Assembly (NCBI GenBank): GCA_012799995.1
Contig: JAAZKE010000087.1
Location: forward strand, 1 to 64,000
DNA from: Chloroflexota bacterium
GTDB lineage: Bacteria > Chloroflexota > Anaerolineae > Anaerolineales > Anaerolineaceae
DNA length: 64,000 bases
Direction of reading: 5' to 3'
Made by a program: the position numbers and the translations under genes. The notes under the pieces are model-generated. The model ran no database searches, was not told where the DNA came from, and was given only the letters and a program-made list of their open reading frames with translations. This document shows, one piece after another, positions 36,005 to 45,888 of the stretch; the first letter of the stretch is position 1, and each line of letters starts with the position of its first letter.

Positions 36005-36363
36005 AAAAGCAAGAGATTGTATAGGTTCAAATGTGTTTCTGAACCTGCTCACCTGGAAATTAGCCATGGATATATTTTTTATATCACAACATAATTAATT
36101 TGATTCTTGCGATTTTTCTACATGTCAATTTTTGTTGAATTTTTCACTTGCAGATAAAATAGAATAGATGTAGTTCCTAAAGGATGGAAAAAAACTTTTG
36201 GCAGAATCTTATGTCAAACTATTACACTTACTAATTGATCGGTTCCTTCCGGACATGTTATGAAGCATATCAAATGCAGGAAATACATCTATCTTGACAG
36301 CATTAAAAGAATCTGCCAGGCGTTTGACTGAGGTGTGGACAATTTTTTGAAATTTATTGAATA
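36005..36363 (+). repeat. Island repeat, R part, copy A (contains decayed XRE/HTH_26-like gene relic)
   Basis: Same order as 39379-39727: TTCAAATGTGTTTCTGAACCTGCTCA...ATGTTATGAAGCATATCAAATGCAGGAAATACATC...ATTAAAAGAATCTGCC. Confidence 0.8.
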
Positions 36364-36554
36364 TAGGTTGATGAAGCATGAATAAAATTTTGGAATCTTG
36401 ATTAAATATGCTAAGGATAGACGAAATAGGAGAAAAGGTCTTTTGGAATATCGCGCAAACCCAGTTAAGGTCATTTTTTCTAGTTGCTTAATGTATTCCT
36501 TATGTCTTTAATCAGTTATTATTATTCCGAATAAAGAAGGGGTAGAACGGTAAC

Positions 36555-37991
36555 ATGAGTAATCTAGTGGGAGCAGAGCGGCTCGTCTTTGAGATGGGTG
36601 TTGCTGATGAAGGATTTAGCTTTACATCTTCTATTGAAACAGCTTTTATATCTACAGAAACTGAAATAAAGAGACTTAAAGACACCATAAAATCAGTAGA
36701 AAATATCAGACCGGACTGTGATAAATTGGACTATGTTTTGGCAGCATGTTCAGGAGTTCTGTGTGGAATTATAGATATTTTTGTTGTCGGGAAACCCGGA
36801 GAATCTCCAGCAACTAATAAAACTGATGAGTGGGTTGCAAATAGAGTAACTGATTTCGCTAAACTTTGTGGTTGGGATGGAAAAGGAGATTTATCATCAG
36901 CGCTCAGATTCCTTGAGAAGGAAAAATTCAAAATTCCATATGACCAGACCGGCATAGGTGGTGCAGGGAAAGAAATATATGACTTGTACCCTTTAAATCA
37001 TCATTTTAAATCGCTAGGTCATAATCCAACTTTGCTAGGTCTGTTTTATTCAATATTAGATCAGTTTACAAATCAATCACACTTTGTTTCAGATGGTCAA
37101 CTGATAGCTTTAGTTAATGCTGATAGTAAATTTGAACTTCACGGCAATAGTTTTCTGGCAAAATTATTCTGTGGTTTCTGTAACTGGTTTGGTCATTTAA
37201 TTTCCGATGTTTCCGGATCATCAGGTAGTAAGGTCCGTGGGATGGGAATACCTTCTCCATTTTGGGCATGGACGAACGATATTATTGCAATAAAGAAACA
37301 GCTCGGAATTTCTGTCTCAGAGTTTGACAAAACAATAAATGAGCTAGCTCTGAGCATATACAAGAAAGGCTATGACATTCGCTTTCAAGTGACCCAGGCC
37401 ATTCCTGTCTTTATAAATGAAATGGTTGTCAGGCTGATATATTCAATAAGGCGATTTGTAAAATATTTAGTAACGACAGATAAAACAGATCTTTCCGCTA
37501 CCGCTGTGTGGAATGCCTGCGAGCCTTTTTCAAACCCTACAATAAAAAGAATGCTTTCAGTAGCACATGGAGTTTTTTGCATGATGGACCTTGGGGATGC
37601 TACTATAAGAGCTTTTATATCAGGTGGTGGCATCTTTGAATTAGCTGAATTTTCCCTTCGTCTTAACATCGTGGGTGTAGGACGTCTCGCTATTTCATTG
37701 TATGGTGAAGTAAAACAGACTAATGTAATACGAGTAGCTGAGTCTGAAGCTCAATTTTCAAGAAGAGAAACAACAATAGTAGAAAATTACCTTGCCGGTC
37801 TTACCTTGTTATCTGAATTATACGATGACAAAGAGCTTGTACATTTTATTGATGATTTTAAAAACAGTGATATGTATATTCAGGCATTCCGGAAATCTGC
37901 CCTTTTGGCAGAACTCAGAAAAGTTCCTGATAATAAGATACTTAGAACAAAATCTGACATAGATTCATATTTTGGAGATGCTAAAAGATGA
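36555..37991 (+). CDS. Uncharacterised 478-aa protein, first gene of a coupled pair
   Basis: RBS-like aaggggtagaacggtaacATG; conserved-looking NHHFKSLGHNPTLLGLFYSILDQFTN...CNWFGHLISDVSGSSGS. Confidence 0.85.
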   Translation: MSNLVGAERLVFEMGVADEGFSFTSSIETAFISTETEIKRLKDTIKSVENIRPDCDKLDYVLAACSGVLCGIIDIFVVGKPGESPATNKTDEWVANRVTDFAKLCGWDGKGDLSSALRFLEKEKFKIPYDQTGIGGAGKEIYDLYPLNHHFKSLGHNPTLLGLFYSILDQFTNQSHFVSDGQLIALVNADSKFELHGNSFLAKLFCGFCNWFGHLISDVSGSSGSKVRGMGIPSPFWAWTNDIIAIKKQLGISVSEFDKTINELALSIYKKGYDIRFQVTQAIPVFINEMVVRLIYSIRRFVKYLVTTDKTDLSATAVWNACEPFSNPTIKRMLSVAHGVFCMMDLGDATIRAFISGGGIFELAEFSLRLNIVGVGRLAISLYGEVKQTNVIRVAESEAQFSRRETTIVENYLAGLTLLSELYDDKELVHFIDDFKNSDMYIQAFRKSALLAELRKVPDNKILRTKSDIDSYFGDAKR

Positions 37992-39109
37992 TGAAAAAGA
38001 ATAAAACAAGGTTGCAAATTGCTCAAGAGCAGGCAGAGTCAGCAATTAAAAAAACAAATGAGAAAATTGAAGAGTTAGGTACGCATACAAGCAGGCTTTA
38101 CGATATCTTGAACGTCTTACAAAACTTCTTTGAAGAAATTAAGAATATCCCAAACGAAAAGCGATTAGAGTATGAAAAACTGAAAGAAATTCGCCTGAAC
38201 TGGAAACAGCAAGCGGAAAAGATTGAGTCAGATTACAAGAATGCTGCCGTAAAAAATGTAGGAAAAGGTGCCGTAGGTGTTGGCGTTGGAGTCGCAGTTG
38301 CAGCATTTGGACCCACTGCTGCAATGGGAGTTGCGACCACATTCGGTGTTGCTTCAACAGGAACAGCCATATCGGCATTAAGTGGTGCGGCAGCTACCAA
38401 TGCGGCATTAGCATGGTTGGGAGGAGGTGCGATCGCGGCAGGCGGTGGTGGAATGGTTGTCGGGAAAGCATTGCTGGCTCTTGCAGGACCTGTCGGTTGG
38501 GCAATTGGAGGAGTGGCACTTATTGGAAGTGGGATTCTGCTTTGGAGCGGTAAAAAATCGAAGGAAAAACTTGAAGATATTTTTACTCTCATCAGTAAGC
38601 GCGATGTTAAATCATACGAACTTGCTATTGTAGAATTAAACGAACGAATAAATCGTATTATAGACGAAAGTCAAAAACTAAATTACTCAATCGAGAGAAC
38701 TGTAACATTTGGTTTGGACTACAATAGCATGACGGAAGCACAGCAATATGAATTAGGTTCCTATGTGAATCTGATGAATTCATCAACTCAATTATTGGTG
38801 AATCCTATAATCGGATTGCAACCCAAATATAACAAAGGCGATTTACAACGATTTACAGCCCACAACAATAAAAGTATCGACAATAAACAGGAAGCTTTAA
38901 TTGTCGCCCTCTCAAATCTCTTATATAAGATAAACCTTGATGAAAAAGATAAGAAACTATTATGGATGTCTTTTAAAAGTAACAAGAAGTTCTTATCATC
39001 GATAGAAATATCAAAAAGTGATTTTAAATTTTCAATTATTGAAACGGTAAGTGATGCTCTTAATTATAAGTATGGGTTAGAAAGTGACGATAATAATTCA
39101 GTTGAATAA
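37988..39109 (+). CDS. Uncharacterised 373-aa protein: coiled coil + glycine-zipper hydrophobic core + C-terminal domain
   Basis: ATGA overlap with upstream gene; VGVGVGVAVAAFGPTAAMG...LSGAAATNAALAWLGGGAIAAGGGGMVVGKALLALAGPVGWAIGGVALIGSGILLW. Confidence 0.85.
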   Translation: MMKKNKTRLQIAQEQAESAIKKTNEKIEELGTHTSRLYDILNVLQNFFEEIKNIPNEKRLEYEKLKEIRLNWKQQAEKIESDYKNAAVKNVGKGAVGVGVGVAVAAFGPTAAMGVATTFGVASTGTAISALSGAAATNAALAWLGGGAIAAGGGGMVVGKALLALAGPVGWAIGGVALIGSGILLWSGKKSKEKLEDIFTLISKRDVKSYELAIVELNERINRIIDESQKLNYSIERTVTFGLDYNSMTEAQQYELGSYVNLMNSSTQLLVNPIIGLQPKYNKGDLQRFTAHNNKSIDNKQEALIVALSNLLYKINLDEKDKKLLWMSFKSNKKFLSSIEISKSDFKFSIIETVSDALNYKYGLESDDNNSVE

Positions 39110-39189
39110 TTTTCGATACATTTTTTACGCTCAATTGGCTCATTCCAAAATCTGATTAAATGTTTTCCTTATACTCAAGGCTGTCTTTC

Positions 39190-39378
39190 AAGTCGATTGT
39201 ATCCATTTTGTAGCCTTTAGCCAGCAGCAATGAACGGATTCGAACCAATGATCTATAAGAGTTGGGCTTTTTTGTGAACCTATAATTCCCGAGTTCAAAT
39301 TAGCAAAGGAAATCAGGTGTATTGCCAGGTTTCTTTTGAATCGTTCAACATATCCTTCAAAGACAGAAGACAAAAAGC
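39190..39378 (+). repeat. Island repeat, L part, copy B (tRNA TpsiC-arm-like segment on minus strand)
   Basis: Matches 45700-45888: GATTGTAT(C/T)C(A/G)TTTTGTAG...GGATTCGAACCA...GAACCTATAATTCCCGAGTTCAAATTAGCAAAG...TTCTTTTGAATCGTTCAACATATC. Confidence 0.82.
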
Positions 39379-39727
39379 AAGGGTTCTCTGTCTCAAATGT
39401 GTTTCTGAACCTGCTCAACTGGAACTCAGCCATGGATACAATTCTTTATATCGGCAATTAAGTTTATTTGATCCTTGTGACTTCTCTACAAGTCAAATTT
39501 TATTGAATTATTCACACAGAGATAATAAAATAGGTATAGTTTCTCAAGGACGGAAGGAAAAACTTTGGCAGGACCTATGACAAACTGTTACACTTATCAA
39601 TTGACCAGTTCCTTATGGACATGTTATGACACATATTAAGCGCAGAGAGTACATCTCACTCGACAGTATTAAAAGAATCTTCCGGATATTTGACTGCACT
39701 GTGGACGATATTTTGGAATTTATTGAT
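39379..39727 (+). repeat. Island repeat, R part, copy B (decayed HTH gene relic)
   Basis: Matches copy A; frames give TYDKLLHLSIDQFLMDML* then MTHIKRREYISLDSIKRIFRIFDCTVDDILEFIDEK*. Confidence 0.82.
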
Positions 39728-39736
39728 GAGAAATAA
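39626..39736 (+). pseudogene. C-terminal remnant of XRE-type (HTH_26-like) regulator
   Basis: REYISLDSIKRIFRIFDCTVDDILEFIDEK resembles the recognition/C-terminal part of small Cro-like regulators; N-terminal half broken. Confidence 0.55.
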
Positions 39737-39833
39737 CACTGGATGACATTATACTGATTTTGCTGATTACTGAAATCTTGCTGAAACGTCTCGGATTTAA
39801 GAATGGCAATAGGGAAAGGAGGGGAAAAGTTTT

Positions 39834-40394
39834 ATGGCAAATTCCAACATAACAAAACAAGCACTTTCAACTGCCTTGAAAGAACTCATGGAAGAAATTC
39901 CTTTCGATAAAATCCGTATAGCAGATATTTGTAATCGATGTGATATGAATCGAAAGAGTTTCTATTATCATTTTAAAGATAAGTATGACCTTTTAAACTG
40001 GATTTTTGATACCGAATTTATTTCATTTGCTAAGGATCTTTCACAAGCTGAAGAACTTAATGAGCATGTAGATGCAGTCCAAAATATATGCAACTATTTT
40101 TATGAAAACAGAGATTTCTATCGCAAGGCGTTGCAAACAAAAGGGCAAAACTCTTTTCCTGAACATTTCCGAGCATATGTAATGCCGATTATGAAGCTGC
40201 GAATTGAATATTTATTTGGTGACAGCGAAGATGATTTTACATTGAATTTTTTTACTGATGCAGCGGTGGCTACAATAGAGCGTTGGCTGTTAGACAAAAA
40301 CTGTATGCCACCGGATGAATTTATGAATAAATTAATGCACCTTGTTCAGCAGGGAGCTGAGGCATTACACAATGAATTAAATAAGGAAGAATAA
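39834..40394 (+). CDS. TetR/AcrR family regulator
   Basis: IRIADICNRCDMNRKSFYYHFKDKYDLLNWIFDTEF. Confidence 0.87.
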   Translation: MANSNITKQALSTALKELMEEIPFDKIRIADICNRCDMNRKSFYYHFKDKYDLLNWIFDTEFISFAKDLSQAEELNEHVDAVQNICNYFYENRDFYRKALQTKGQNSFPEHFRAYVMPIMKLRIEYLFGDSEDDFTLNFFTDAAVATIERWLLDKNCMPPDEFMNKLMHLVQQGAEALHNELNKEE

Positions 40395-40429
40395 TTGATT
40401 GAAATTCTCATGGTAATTATTCTTCGCAA

Positions 40430-41290
40430 TTAACAATTACTTTCTTTTAAGAAACTGGTGATCTTCACTCCATCTTGGTAACCTTTTTGATATAGTTGAT
40501 GGAGCGCATTTGTATCCCGGCTTAATGTGTTTATGCCACAGGTATCATCAGGTGCTATGATCAACAACATTCCACATGCAGCAAGTTTTTGAGCCAATAT
40601 CACACCTTTATTATATTCTTCTGCTTGATGGTCCAGTTTTTCGGCTATCAGCGGATATTCCTTTCGAATGAGAGCTGCAAGTTTCTTATCTTGATCAGAT
40701 GTCATTACCGTATTTTCAGGTAACGTTAGAAGGAGTACGACTCTATCGCAACCGAGCAAAAATGCTTTTTCAATCGGAATAGAATCGGCAAGGGAACCAT
40801 CGTAATAAAGTTTGTCTCCTATAACATAAGGGTGACATACAAAAGGAATAGAGCATGATGCTTTCAGAATACTGTAATCATCCTGATGTAAATCACTTTT
40901 ATCAAAATATTTTGCCTTGCCGGTTTCTGCTTCCGTAGCAACAACGATAAATTCCATGGGATTAGCAACAGCAGCCGGATAATCCAACGGATTTTCCCCA
41001 TCTGAATTACTTAGTGTGCTGTAAATGTAATCAAGATCAATGAATGATTTTTTGGAACGCAAATTATTGATGCTGACATACTCTTCTCGCGACATATATT
41101 CAGTATAAAACTGATAGCTTCTACCCCTCTGACCGGCAATATAGGTGATTAAATTGCCGCTTCCGGCAGATACACCAATTCCAAGATCAAAATGAATGTT
41201 GTAATCTATGCAGTAGTCCAGGACACCAGCTGTATAAATTCCTCCGAAACCACCGCCTACATCTACGATGCCTGTTTTTTCACTTTTCAC
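40430..41290 (-). CDS. Patatin-like phospholipase
   Basis: Oxyanion motif DVGGGFGGIYTAGVLDYC, nucleophile GVSAGSG, DGSLADSIPIEKAFLLGCDRVVLLLT. Confidence 0.88.
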   Translation of the reverse strand: MKSEKTGIVDVGGGFGGIYTAGVLDYCIDYNIHFDLGIGVSAGSGNLITYIAGQRGRSYQFYTEYMSREEYVSINNLRSKKSFIDLDYIYSTLSNSDGENPLDYPAAVANPMEFIVVATEAETGKAKYFDKSDLHQDDYSILKASCSIPFVCHPYVIGDKLYYDGSLADSIPIEKAFLLGCDRVVLLLTLPENTVMTSDQDKKLAALIRKEYPLIAEKLDHQAEEYNKGVILAQKLAACGMLLIIAPDDTCGINTLSRDTNALHQLYQKGYQDGVKITSFLKESNC

Positions 41291-42405
41291 ATTAATTCAC
41301 TTTCTTTTTTTGTACAAGTATTCAATAGAATATCTGTAATACTGCTATGAAAGAGATTATGGTGTCCATTCTCAAACGTCTTTTCACAATCACATAAATC
41401 TCCGTCTTTATTAAAATATACGAAACAGGCATCCTCTGAAATAATTGTGTCGACCAGACAATTATCCCCTTGCAAATCCCACGCGATCGTACTGTATGAT
41501 TGGTCAAGGCGAGTTTGCTTCACTGTCGAATAGATTATTTGGCGCACTTCGCTCGGACATTTATTTTCCGGAATCAGAACAGTGAAAACAGGTGAAAGTT
41601 GCTGAACATTACGAAACAGATCACCATTGATAATGGCCTCTGTGTCTTCTTGTCCATACTGATACCATATTGAGTAAAGCATGTTATTTGCACGGAGTTC
41701 AGCACAAACATCGGTGGCATTTTCGTCGTAACGGATAACTACCATCAGGTTTTTTAACATAGTCGTTTCTTGAAGAAATTTAAGGGTTATATCCTTCGTA
41801 TCACAAAACACACAAAAAGCACTTTCAGGGTGTTCTTTTACAAGAGAAAATATTTTTCCGGGTTGTTCCGATACAAAAAACATCCATGTGTAAATGCCTA
41901 AACTTTCACCCTCAAAGATCAGATCATCATATTTCTGGAATTTTTTTTCGTACTGTTTTGAGTCTATCTCAATGCACATTGCCCACGGAATATTGCAACC
42001 TAGAGCTTTCTCATTTTCACGGATACGTTGTGCACCTACGGTACAACTGTTATATCCAACATTGATGCCAAATGTGTAAAGATTCTCGGTGTCTACATGT
42101 GCTATGGTATCCCTTATTAGCTCATAATAAGCACTGTTCTCATTCTGCAGCATAGTTTGGACTACCGTAAAAAATTCTTTTTGAAATCTGCCATCTGAAA
42201 ATTGCAAAGCCATATCTATAAGGTTTCTGATGCCTTGTTCCGGACTGCGCTTAATATTTTCCAATGCCTTTTTAACAGTAGTTTCAATTAATAATCGAGG
42301 TATTCTGTTTTTCATTTTACATACATTGGCTCCTTCTAAATAGCACAGATATACCCTCTGCCTATCAAAAGGATATTTAAAGAGACAGATACTAACAATG
42401 CACAA
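41287..42405 (-). CDS. Radical-SAM-like paralogue lacking the CxxxCxxC cluster motif (pseudoenzyme candidate)
   Basis: Co-linear with the 42562 radical SAM protein (CNIPWAMCIEID vs CNIPWAILMDLT; GESLGIYTWMFFVSEQP vs GTEMGTYMYLYSGGEP; CFVYFNKDGDLCDCE vs SYLHINANGDIEPCAF) but cluster motif replaced by SKQYEKKFQ; likely start MKNRIPRLL. Confidence 0.7.
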   Translation of the reverse strand: MCIVSICLFKYPFDRQRVYLCYLEGANVCKMKNRIPRLLIETTVKKALENIKRSPEQGIRNLIDMALQFSDGRFQKEFFTVVQTMLQNENSAYYELIRDTIAHVDTENLYTFGINVGYNSCTVGAQRIRENEKALGCNIPWAMCIEIDSKQYEKKFQKYDDLIFEGESLGIYTWMFFVSEQPGKIFSLVKEHPESAFCVFCDTKDITLKFLQETTMLKNLMVVIRYDENATDVCAELRANNMLYSIWYQYGQEDTEAIINGDLFRNVQQLSPVFTVLIPENKCPSEVRQIIYSTVKQTRLDQSYSTIAWDLQGDNCLVDTIISEDACFVYFNKDGDLCDCEKTFENGHHNLFHSSITDILLNTCTKKESELM

Positions 42406-42561
42406 AGGCTCCGTGATGTCGTAAAAGGCGACAGATTATTAGTTATGTTACAATTTGGGACTTTTGCTTTTTAGTGTCTAATGCTCTTTCAGAGTCCCTT
42501 CCTTATAATTTGATTAAATAAAATCGTTGGTTAGAGAATGCGTAAAAAGGAGATACATACG

Positions 42562-43917
42562 ATGAGCAGAACAATTAAAGAAAATATGCAAGCATTTGCG
42601 ATAAAGCAGGTTCTAAACTACTTTGATGAAGATCCAAATAAGAGTTTTCCCAAAATCTTGGAATGGGTTGAAAGGTTTGACAAGGATGGTAAGAACGCAC
42701 ATTTGATTAGACCTTTTCGTGCCATTATTAATGACCCTGATAATAATTGGCATGTACTTCTTAAGAGTCTGTGGACGGATATAGACCCTGATGTTCGCAA
42801 AGTTGCCTTTGAGAATTTTGTTCTAAATACTTCTTTAATTTCTTCACACCAACGGGATAAATGGATAAAAACTCATAACTGCAATATTCCATGGGCAATT
42901 CTGATGGATCTTACGTCTGCCTGCAATTTGAATTGTATCGGCTGTTGGGCAGCCGATTACGGCCACAAGCTAAATTTGGAATACGAGGTCCTTGATGATA
43001 TTATCCGTCAGGGTACCGAGATGGGTACCTACATGTATCTTTACTCCGGCGGAGAGCCATTAGTTCGCAAGGACGATATCATCCGTTTATGTGAGGCACA
43101 TTCTGACTGCATGTTCCTCGCTTTCACCAATGGAACGCTGATTGATGAGAAGTTTGCTGACGAAATGTTGCGTGTCAAGAACTTCGTTCCTGCTATTAGC
43201 ATTGAGGGATTTGAAGACGCGACCGATCACCGTCGGGGCAAGGGAACTTATCAGAAAGTCAAGAACGCTATGCGTATTCTCAAAGAGAAAAAGCTAATAT
43301 TTGGTGCATCCTGTTGCTATACCTCCTACAACATAGATTCTCTTAGTTCTGAAGAATATATCGATATGTTGGTCGAATCAGGAGCGAAGTTTGCATGGTT
43401 CTTCCACTATATGCCAATTGGTAATACAGCTGCTCCTGAACTGCTGCCTTCACCCGAACAACGTGAGACCATGTATCGCAAAATCAGAGAGTATAGAAAA
43501 AGTAAACCTATTTTCACCATTGACTTTCAAAATGACGGTGAATATGTTAAAGGATGCATTGCGGGTGGTCGTAGCTATCTGCACATTAACGCCAATGGTG
43601 ATATTGAACCGTGTGCTTTTATCCACTACGCAGATTCCAACATTAGAAATCACACACTTCTGGAAGCCTATAAACGGCCTTTGTTTATGGCTTATAAAGA
43701 AGGGCAACCTTTTAATAACAACATGCTCCGTCCTTGTCCTATGTTGGAAAATCCGGAGTGTTTATGCAGTATGGTAAAGCGTACCGATGCACATTCAACC
43801 GATATGCAGTCTCCTGAAAACATTGACGATTTATATGCTAAGTGTAAGCCTTATGCAGACCTCTGGACGCCTAAATCTGATGAACTCTGGGCTGCAAGTC
43901 ACAACAAAAAAAATTAG
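42562..43917 (+). CDS. Radical SAM protein with SPASM-like C-terminus
   Basis: LTSACNLNCIGCWA (CxxxCxxC), YLYSGGEPLVR, C-terminal GCIAGGRSYLHINANGDIEPCAF...PCPMLENPECLC. Confidence 0.93.
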   Translation: MSRTIKENMQAFAIKQVLNYFDEDPNKSFPKILEWVERFDKDGKNAHLIRPFRAIINDPDNNWHVLLKSLWTDIDPDVRKVAFENFVLNTSLISSHQRDKWIKTHNCNIPWAILMDLTSACNLNCIGCWAADYGHKLNLEYEVLDDIIRQGTEMGTYMYLYSGGEPLVRKDDIIRLCEAHSDCMFLAFTNGTLIDEKFADEMLRVKNFVPAISIEGFEDATDHRRGKGTYQKVKNAMRILKEKKLIFGASCCYTSYNIDSLSSEEYIDMLVESGAKFAWFFHYMPIGNTAAPELLPSPEQRETMYRKIREYRKSKPIFTIDFQNDGEYVKGCIAGGRSYLHINANGDIEPCAFIHYADSNIRNHTLLEAYKRPLFMAYKEGQPFNNNMLRPCPMLENPECLCSMVKRTDAHSTDMQSPENIDDLYAKCKPYADLWTPKSDELWAASHNKKN

Positions 43918-44055
43918 TTTCTTACCTGAGACAAATAGAGGTCTAACACTTAGTGTCCAACCTCCTTATGTGTAATCTAAAAAGCAACTATATTCAGACT
44001 TTATAGCCAAACCATAAATTGATTACATCAACCACTCATTCCTTAGCCAAGTTGA

Positions 44056-44091
44056 GTGGACGGACATTGATTTAATGTCGTCCACTTTTTT
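44056..44091 (+). terminator. Intrinsic terminator
   Basis: GTGGACGGACAT tgattta ATGTCGTCCAC TTTTTT (one bulge). Confidence 0.75.
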
Positions 44092-44220
44092 CTTGCCCGC
44101 TATAATAATCAAGTGAAGATAAAGAATGGAGGTAAATCATGAATCTTAAATCCGAACAAAAAAGAATTGCTTTTGGTTACGACCGTGCTGCCCCAAAGTA
44201 CAAATTGATAAAACAATTCG

Positions 44221-45522
44221 TTAATCAAATTCAAGATCGAATTCAATTTGACGCTCTTGTAGATGTATTTTAATAGTATTCCAGTCTTCATTATGCCTAT
44301 GACGGTTTGTGCATTGCTTATTGCCTTTGTATATATTTAAAATAGTTTTGATTGATTCTTCCGATATTTCTGGTAATAAGTTTATAAATTCTCTTGTGTA
44401 AGAATCAGCAATAGAAAATGAATTAAAGGTGGGGATTGCTTCAGCCATTAGTACCATGTATTCATTGATATCGAAATTGTCTGTGTTCTTTAGAGTCTCA
44501 TAAATATCGAAGGTCCAAATGGGCTTATGTAAGTTGGTGTGTTCTTTGAAAAAATCATAAGTCGATTTTACTCCCTTTGGGAAAAACATTTTGTATAGGC
44601 GTAAATTGTTTGGATCTGAAAGTATCTTATCACTAACATAATTAAAAATATCGTTATTTAGTTGTAACTTATCCATTATAACTGGGAAATTAAGCATGAG
44701 TGATGCTAAAGCATTCAATCTCGTGGAGTTACTTTTTAGCAGGTCAATCTTTATTTGGTTAAAAATGGATATAATTTTATCTTCGTCAAACAATTGATGA
44801 TAACCAATATGAACGGCATGTTGAGTCATGGCATATGCAAAGTAGAATAATCCAACGAGATTTTTGTCACAATCCTCATTGTCTGTTACTAAAAGAAGTT
44901 TGATGAAAGTACGGTATGATTCCTTAAAGGAATCATACGTTAATCGGTTTAGATGTTTTTTAGTTATTGAATCAACAATTGATTCTTCCAACTTATCAAA
45001 GGATATGTCATATAAAAAAGAAGAATAAAATTCAATATCTGATTGAACAAAAGAAAAAAGATCTCTAATAAAAGGTGCTTTGACGGAAAAAATATTATCA
45101 TACATTGAGCAGATCAGCATACGAGCTTGGTAATCACTTGGAACATATAGGGAGTTATCATCTACCTTTAAGTGAGCACATTTATTTCTACAGTTTTTTA
45201 AGTATCCAATATCTTCAATAAATCGATTGAAATATGATGGTGAGTGTTGTTTAAAAAATTCAATTATTTCATTTTCTATTTGTGAATATTTTTCGTCGTT
45301 TTTGATCATTTGCTCAACTTCACGTAGTTTTGTATTTGCTTGTGAATCCCCTTCTTCCGCCATAACTTGAAGTTTAATAAATAAATCATAAATAACAAAA
45401 GAATAGAGTAATACAATGGTAGCTCGATAATTTTGATTATAGTAACATTGGAGAATTTCTTTAAAATACGTTCTAGAGTCCTCGCTGTAAAAGACATTTA
45501 AATCTTTTTCGTCAAAAAGCAT
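44221..45522 (-). CDS. HEPN-like domain protein (RNxxxH motif), candidate RNase/abortive-infection type
   Basis: GYLKNCRNKCAHLKVDD within an all-alpha-looking N-terminal region; AT-rich, isolated in island. Confidence 0.65.
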   Translation of the reverse strand: MLFDEKDLNVFYSEDSRTYFKEILQCYYNQNYRATIVLLYSFVIYDLFIKLQVMAEEGDSQANTKLREVEQMIKNDEKYSQIENEIIEFFKQHSPSYFNRFIEDIGYLKNCRNKCAHLKVDDNSLYVPSDYQARMLICSMYDNIFSVKAPFIRDLFSFVQSDIEFYSSFLYDISFDKLEESIVDSITKKHLNRLTYDSFKESYRTFIKLLLVTDNEDCDKNLVGLFYFAYAMTQHAVHIGYHQLFDEDKIISIFNQIKIDLLKSNSTRLNALASLMLNFPVIMDKLQLNNDIFNYVSDKILSDPNNLRLYKMFFPKGVKSTYDFFKEHTNLHKPIWTFDIYETLKNTDNFDINEYMVLMAEAIPTFNSFSIADSYTREFINLLPEISEESIKTILNIYKGNKQCTNRHRHNEDWNTIKIHLQERQIEFDLEFD

Positions 45523-45699
45523 ATGAATTTCCTCGCCGGCAAGAGTATACAGAAAAGAATTACAAATCTTTTCTTATGAAGTTATTTTAACAAAATCTAT
45601 ATAAAATTTAAAACAAAGATGATTTTGATGATTTTATTTTAGTGTACCTAAAACTGAGCTGTGCACCCAATTTTCAAATTTGCACCCAAGCAATATTTC

Positions 45700-45888
45700 C
45701 GAGTGGATTGTATTCGTTTTGTAGTACGATGCCAGCAGCGGGGAGCGGATTCGAACCACTGACCTTCGTGTATGGGCTTTTTTTGAACCTATAATTCCCG
45801 AGTTCAAATTAGCAAAGAAAATCAGGTTTATTATCAGGTTTCTTTTGAATCGTTCAACATATCTCTCAAAAATAGAAGACAAAAAGCC
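45700..45888 (+). repeat. Island repeat, L part, copy C (tRNA 3'-end-like on minus strand)
   Basis: Minus strand GGTCAGTGGTTCGAATCCGCTCCCCGCTG: AGTGG-TTCGAAT-CCGCT forms a T arm; rest matches 39190-39378. Confidence 0.82.

Follow-up and report, generated by a model that had tools for sequence, protein, structure and literature searches.

The window analysed here, 64,000 nucleotides of a genome placed in one genus group with a Flexilinea MAG and assigned, like the other genomes given that family name below, to Anaerolineaceae (Chloroflexota), carries a gene for a radical SAM enzyme (RSAM) and, divergent from it, one for a cluster-less radical SAM paralogue (PS), along with genes for a patatin-like protein and a TetR-family regulator (Table 1). 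All four open reading frames of the first-pass annotation were confirmed at their positions. For PS, the annotated frame of 41287-42405 exists, but the TTG extension to 42405 is poorly backed by relatives, and the ATG at 42315 is the likelier start. The RSAM frame opens at 42538, with 42562 as its likely start.

Table 1. Genes and other features of the PS/RSAM locus, in window coordinates
Feature	Position	Strand	Remarks
Transferable cassette (proposed)	39485..43904		DNA block common to the Clostridia MAG loci L040, L041, L043 and L059 and to the Anaerolineaceae genome G095 (L023)
TetR-family regulator, DhaS-like	39834..40394	+	PF14278 above cut-off; convergent with PS and patatin
Patatin-like phospholipase	40430..41290	-	PF01734 and DUF6363; GVSAG serine motif; accessory, sporadic
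PS, cluster-less radical SAM paralogue, 342 aa	41287..42315	-	Partial (beta/alpha) barrel predicted; N-terminal helical domain
Operator-like array, PS/RSAM divergent promoter	42417..42479		Two units with a degenerate unit between
RSAM, radical SAM enzyme	42562..43917	+	CNLNCIGC and SGGEP intact; C-terminal Cys conserved (twitch/SPASM-like)
CxxxCxxC cluster motif of RSAM	42922..42945	+	Residues 121-128 from start 42562; deleted in PS

The resemblance between PS and RSAM, earlier seen by eye, is homology along the full length. BLASTP gives 58.9 bits (E 6e-14), and the hhalign match of the PS profile (52 members) to the RSAM profile (32 members) stands at 100% (E 2.3e-43) and spans 336 columns, which take in a common N-terminal helical domain. 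In the high-confidence AF2 model of PS (pLDDT 92.4, pTM 0.91) this helical domain leads into strands and helices that alternate as in a partial barrel. Among solved structures, Foldseek places two radical SAM proteins, SuiB and SkfB, closest to it, at modest TM-scores of about 0.46. A radical SAM-type barrel is therefore what structure prediction returns, as the first-pass annotation had supposed, and the profile search agrees. By this predicted partial TIM-barrel fold and by common descent PS fits the radical SAM superfamily; by the cluster motif it does not. The loss of the cluster ligands and of SGGEP described in the first-pass annotation holds: the CxxxCxxC loop is deleted and SGGEP is missing from the window protein as well as from each of the 61 relatives aligned (cluster motif in 0/61). 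Of the C-terminal NxDGDxxxC said to be shared with RSAM, the Cys is not a conserved position across the PS family.

RSAM itself scores 66 bits against PF04055, for which the cut-off is 29.5, and its C121, C125, C128 and GGEP are invariant in 32 sequences. Against the SPASM model PF13186 it reaches 19.6 bits with a cut-off of 21.5; C332, C351 and C392 are invariant. The predicted structure has the layout of PS plus a C-terminal extension, and the nearest solved folds are the radical SAM/SPASM maturases SuiB, SkfB and anSME, the first two of which are also nearest to PS, with the difference that PS has no cluster. Two functional assignments were considered and rejected. Viperin-type defence is not indicated, as the PADLOC matches of RSAM are weak and at superfamily level only. 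A RiPP system would accord with maturases among the nearest folds, yet no precursor peptide was noticed, the gap between RSAM and PS contains the operator-like array, and relatives have little common DNA beyond the cassette. From the literature (PMC13274423), the bacterial membrane-spanning lipid synthase (Mss) came into consideration as a possible relative of RSAM. A search against Rfam returned nothing of note.

To establish how widely PS occurs, genome contigs were scanned once with a seven-member PS alignment as query and two sequence patterns, one of them FGIN[LVI]G[HY]N. The scan recovered PS relatives at 66 loci, nearly all in Clostridia, Anaerolineaceae copies included; among 396 genomes drawn from the class, PS was found only in the window genome. 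Positions invariant within the family and peculiar to it are S61, Y63, Y64, F82, N85, G87, N89 and D284. Because the pattern selected for residues 82-89, their invariance is overstated; the missing cluster is unaffected by this bias. Pfam matched neither the window protein nor any of the 52 members scanned, and NCBIfam matched one of the 52, marginally and to an unrelated model. The PS family is thus covered by no Pfam or NCBIfam model and is unnamed. The haloarchaeal TIGR04347 (pseudo-SAM/SPASM) is comparable in that its protein, too, derives from RSAM and bears the name pseudo-SAM, but the window PS, which lacks any NCBIfam match, does not match it. In a joint tree, built by a quick method and with long branches present, PS and RSAM fall on opposite sides of one branch. 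Among close loci, dN/dS is 0.21-0.31 for PS, 0.06-0.16 for RSAM and 0.09-0.20 for TetR, and PS is under purifying selection. A local pseudogene or a chance resemblance is ruled out by these ratios, the 61 relatives and the profile comparison.

The neighbourhood of PS was surveyed by tblastn within 2.5 kb at all 66 loci. A TetR gene, convergent with PS, is present in 52/66, and RSAM, divergent from it, in 28/66, this being the usual arrangement; DegV/FakB-like genes occur in 14/66, Ca2+-type P-ATPase genes in 9/66, MntP in 2/66 and patatin in 5/66, counting a fragment in L041. The association that the first-pass annotation had put up for refutation by such a survey is therefore conserved. Its proposal of a catalytic/pseudoenzyme pair holds as far as that association goes, but the tightest link is a different one, since PS tracks TetR where RSAM is absent. 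When RSAM was searched for in 34 PS genomes, it proved adjacent by tblastn in two (L046, L095); 21 of the remaining 32 have a match elsewhere, some of only 33-34% identity, and the other 11 have none at E<=1e-40, a number that draft genomes may inflate by hiding some. On the PS tree, RSAM adjacency requires 9 changes and patatin 5. RSAM relatives without an adjacent PS are also found in the same bacterial family. At five loci (L044, L046, L047, L048 and L049) a DegV/FakB-like gene lies directly downstream of RSAM on the same strand, and the two apparently form one operon. TetR is missing from the vicinity of PS at eleven loci, which include an Anaerolineaceae clade (L082, L085, L089, L090 and L093), 25-29% identical to the window PS, that sits beside DegV with neither TetR nor an adjacent RSAM. 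A literature search found no description of this gene set.

Two kinds of unit, GGACA-N12-TGTCC and the 17-nt TGTC/TGTTAC...GACA, are spaced 28-29 bp apart in the intergenic DNA between RSAM and PS. In the window, AGACACTAAAAAGCAAAAGTCC lies at 42458-42479 (minus-strand reading) and is separated by the degenerate unit from TGTCGCCTTTTACGACA at 42417-42433 (minus strand). Such units recur across loci whose PS proteins have only about 30% identity. A strict GGACA-N12-TGTCC-type unit stands upstream of PS in 29/51 TetR-linked loci versus 1/11 loci without TetR (Fisher p 0.006), compared with 0/65 in an equal-length stretch inside PS and 0.17 expected from shuffles. Ten loci without an adjacent RSAM retain the unit upstream of PS, and several repeat it upstream of TetR, between TetR and the P-ATPase gene. 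Within the window genome the PS/RSAM promoter holds the only exact copy of the 17-nt site, and in seven Clostridia genomes 6/7 motif matches lie at the cassette by position. A broad regulon in the window genome was rejected, the sole exact match being at the cassette and one-mismatch matches being near control level. A single GGACA-like inverted repeat is also seen downstream of RSAM, at 44062-44083.

The TetR protein has as its nearest solved structures a Listeria DhaK regulator (4mk6, E 1e-20) and DhaS (2iu5, E 8e-10). It scores 115.3 bits against the DhaS equivalog TIGR02366, under the cut-off of 129, while the homologue in L055 reaches 134.4 bits, above it; in L055, L062 and L103, TIGR02366 is the sole match. 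In Lactococcus lactis, work by Christen from 2006 is said to have identified DhaS as a TetR-family activator and DhaQ, an inactive paralogue of DhaK, as its co-activator, and the DhaS operator reportedly pairs a GGACA with a TGTCC half-site in an inverted repeat. The window locus is alike in that a DhaS-like TetR lies beside a catalytically dead paralogue of the neighbouring enzyme and in having inverted repeats with the half-sites attributed to the DhaS operator. It differs in that the dead paralogue is a radical SAM barrel rather than a DhaK, that its TetR falls short of the TIGR02366 cut-off, and that DNA binding would be by analogy. Regulation of the DhaS-DhaQ type at this locus is suggested by linkage, the operator-like array and co-variation.

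A second DhaS-like regulator, pneumococcal FasR (SPV_0647), is structurally close to DhaS and affects fabM and fakB3, according to the excerpted text of PMC12647141, which gives its DNA site as unknown. FasR thereby resembles the window system in being a DhaS-like TetR and in its connection with FakB/DegV proteins; the same excerpt makes no mention of an RSAM or PS partner. Taken with DegV and patatin, the reported FasR targets point weakly to fatty acids or membranes, and the chemistry of the module is possibly lipid or membrane related. The lipid or acyl theme of the first-pass annotation is supported indirectly at most, by the DegV/FakB-like genes, some of them directly downstream of RSAM, and by the structural likeness to FasR, which affects fatty-acid genes.

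Patatin membership itself is clear, with 72.8 bits against PF01734 (cut-off 27.7) and, in the translation, GVSAG for the serine and DGS for the Asp of the dyad. The PS stop and the patatin start do overlap by 4 nt (GTGA), as first described, and a 4-nt overlap is also present in L040, L046 and L048. In the nearest Anaerolineaceae relative (G095, locus L023), TetR (88%), PS (77%) and RSAM (88%) are intact, whereas all that is left of patatin is its 5' end joined to its 3' end at L023:10365-10510, between intact PS and TetR. The four-gene set claimed at the outset consequently fails as a core, and patatin as a core member is ruled out by its distribution across PS loci. That the four genes make up one lipid-modifying pathway, with patatin supplying the substrate, is very unlikely: the overlapping start at several loci and the purifying selection on patatin (dN/dS 0.24) would fit, but the gene is rare among PS loci and is lost in close relatives with the rest intact.

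Clostridia MAG loci match the cassette, which sits in a low-GC stretch, at 77-92%, and the alignment ends at its borders. Acquisition by transfer is its likeliest origin. An assembly error is possible, but two Anaerolineaceae genomes carry the cassette. Around it extends a low-GC island (36005-45887) with PADLOC matches to BnzB (36555-37991, E 4e-102), PDC-M09A (37988-39109, E 6e-73) and PD-T7-3 (44221-45522, minus strand, E 1.5e-34). A repeat at 36005-36360, 39191-39726 and 45702-45887 has a right part that opens and a left part that closes two tandem modules (36005-39378 and 39373-45887), which meet at AAAAAGC; the left part includes a tRNA T-arm-like stretch. This module-end repeat is present three times in the window genome and absent from the family's 146 other genomes, and the two modules look like mobile cargo with common ends.

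Which partner PS has co-evolved with was assessed from ML distances over 25 loci, where linked loci have a common history. Distances correlate at 0.81 for PS-TetR, 0.55 for PS-RSAM and 0.54 for RSAM-TetR, and partial correlations are 0.73 for PS-TetR given RSAM, 0.22 (p 0.03) for PS-RSAM given TetR and 0.20 for RSAM-TetR. Rank correlations and subsets keep the same order, and in the window's clade the rank correlations are 0.90 for PS-TetR and 0.19 for PS-RSAM. PS therefore co-varies more strongly with TetR than with RSAM, which is support and not proof, because the slow-evolving RSAM carries a weaker distance signal.

As PS stays with TetR, sometimes without RSAM, it may be an expression-controlling sensor. 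The reading we favour, with about an even chance of being correct, is that PS is a dead-enzyme paralogue repurposed as a sensing co-regulator of the adjacent DhaS-like TetR. TetR would bind the array at the PS/RSAM promoter and PS would bind TetR, sensing a small molecule related to the substrate or product of RSAM through its retained barrel or a conserved N-terminal helical patch. Genes under the control of the module would then be PS, RSAM and, depending on the lineage, DegV, patatin or cation pumps. By analogy, the logic would be that of DhaQ with DhaS in Lactococcus, a dead paralogue sensing the ligand and adjusting TetR. Against a co-regulator stand the 11 loci with PS and no TetR nearby, the Anaerolineaceae DegV clade among them, and the 22/51 TetR-linked loci in which the strict unit is missing.

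A rather unlikely alternative is that PS is a non-catalytic partner of RSAM of the prozyme type, serving it as a scaffold, as an allosteric activator or as a subunit that delivers substrate, with TetR merely regulating both. Dead-paralogue activators are known, such as the trypanosome AdoMetDC prozyme (PMC5201418); at the 28 divergent loci one promoter array serves both genes, the common N-terminal helical domain could mediate pairing, and the PS-RSAM distance correlation exceeds all 500 permutations. However, PS is kept in the 11 of 32 genomes without a detected RSAM, RSAM relatives occur without an adjacent PS, and the PS-RSAM correlation shrinks once TetR is accounted for, to about zero in the window's clade. 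Less probable still, and decidedly improbable, is a ligand-binding or enzymatic role of PS's own (for instance on the RSAM product or a lipid), in which it neither controls TetR nor pairs with RSAM. The purifying selection, the PS-specific invariant residues and the clade beside DegV would suit such a role, but the search pattern itself accounts for part of the conservation at residues 82-89, and it would be left unexplained why PS is so tightly linked to TetR, why the operator is retained at PS and why PS co-varies with TetR.

We know of no described system in which a radical SAM barrel has such a regulatory role. The broader proposition, which we rate a little below even, is that radical SAM enzymes gave rise, once and long ago, to widespread cluster-less sensors that switch transcription with a dedicated TetR. 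If this is true, the radical SAM superfamily would gain a regulatory pseudoenzyme branch, and the dead-paralogue partner of a DhaS-like TetR would have arisen in an unrelated enzyme fold. The uncharacterised cognate RSAM of these gut and digester anaerobes would then become approachable via its own sensor and operator.
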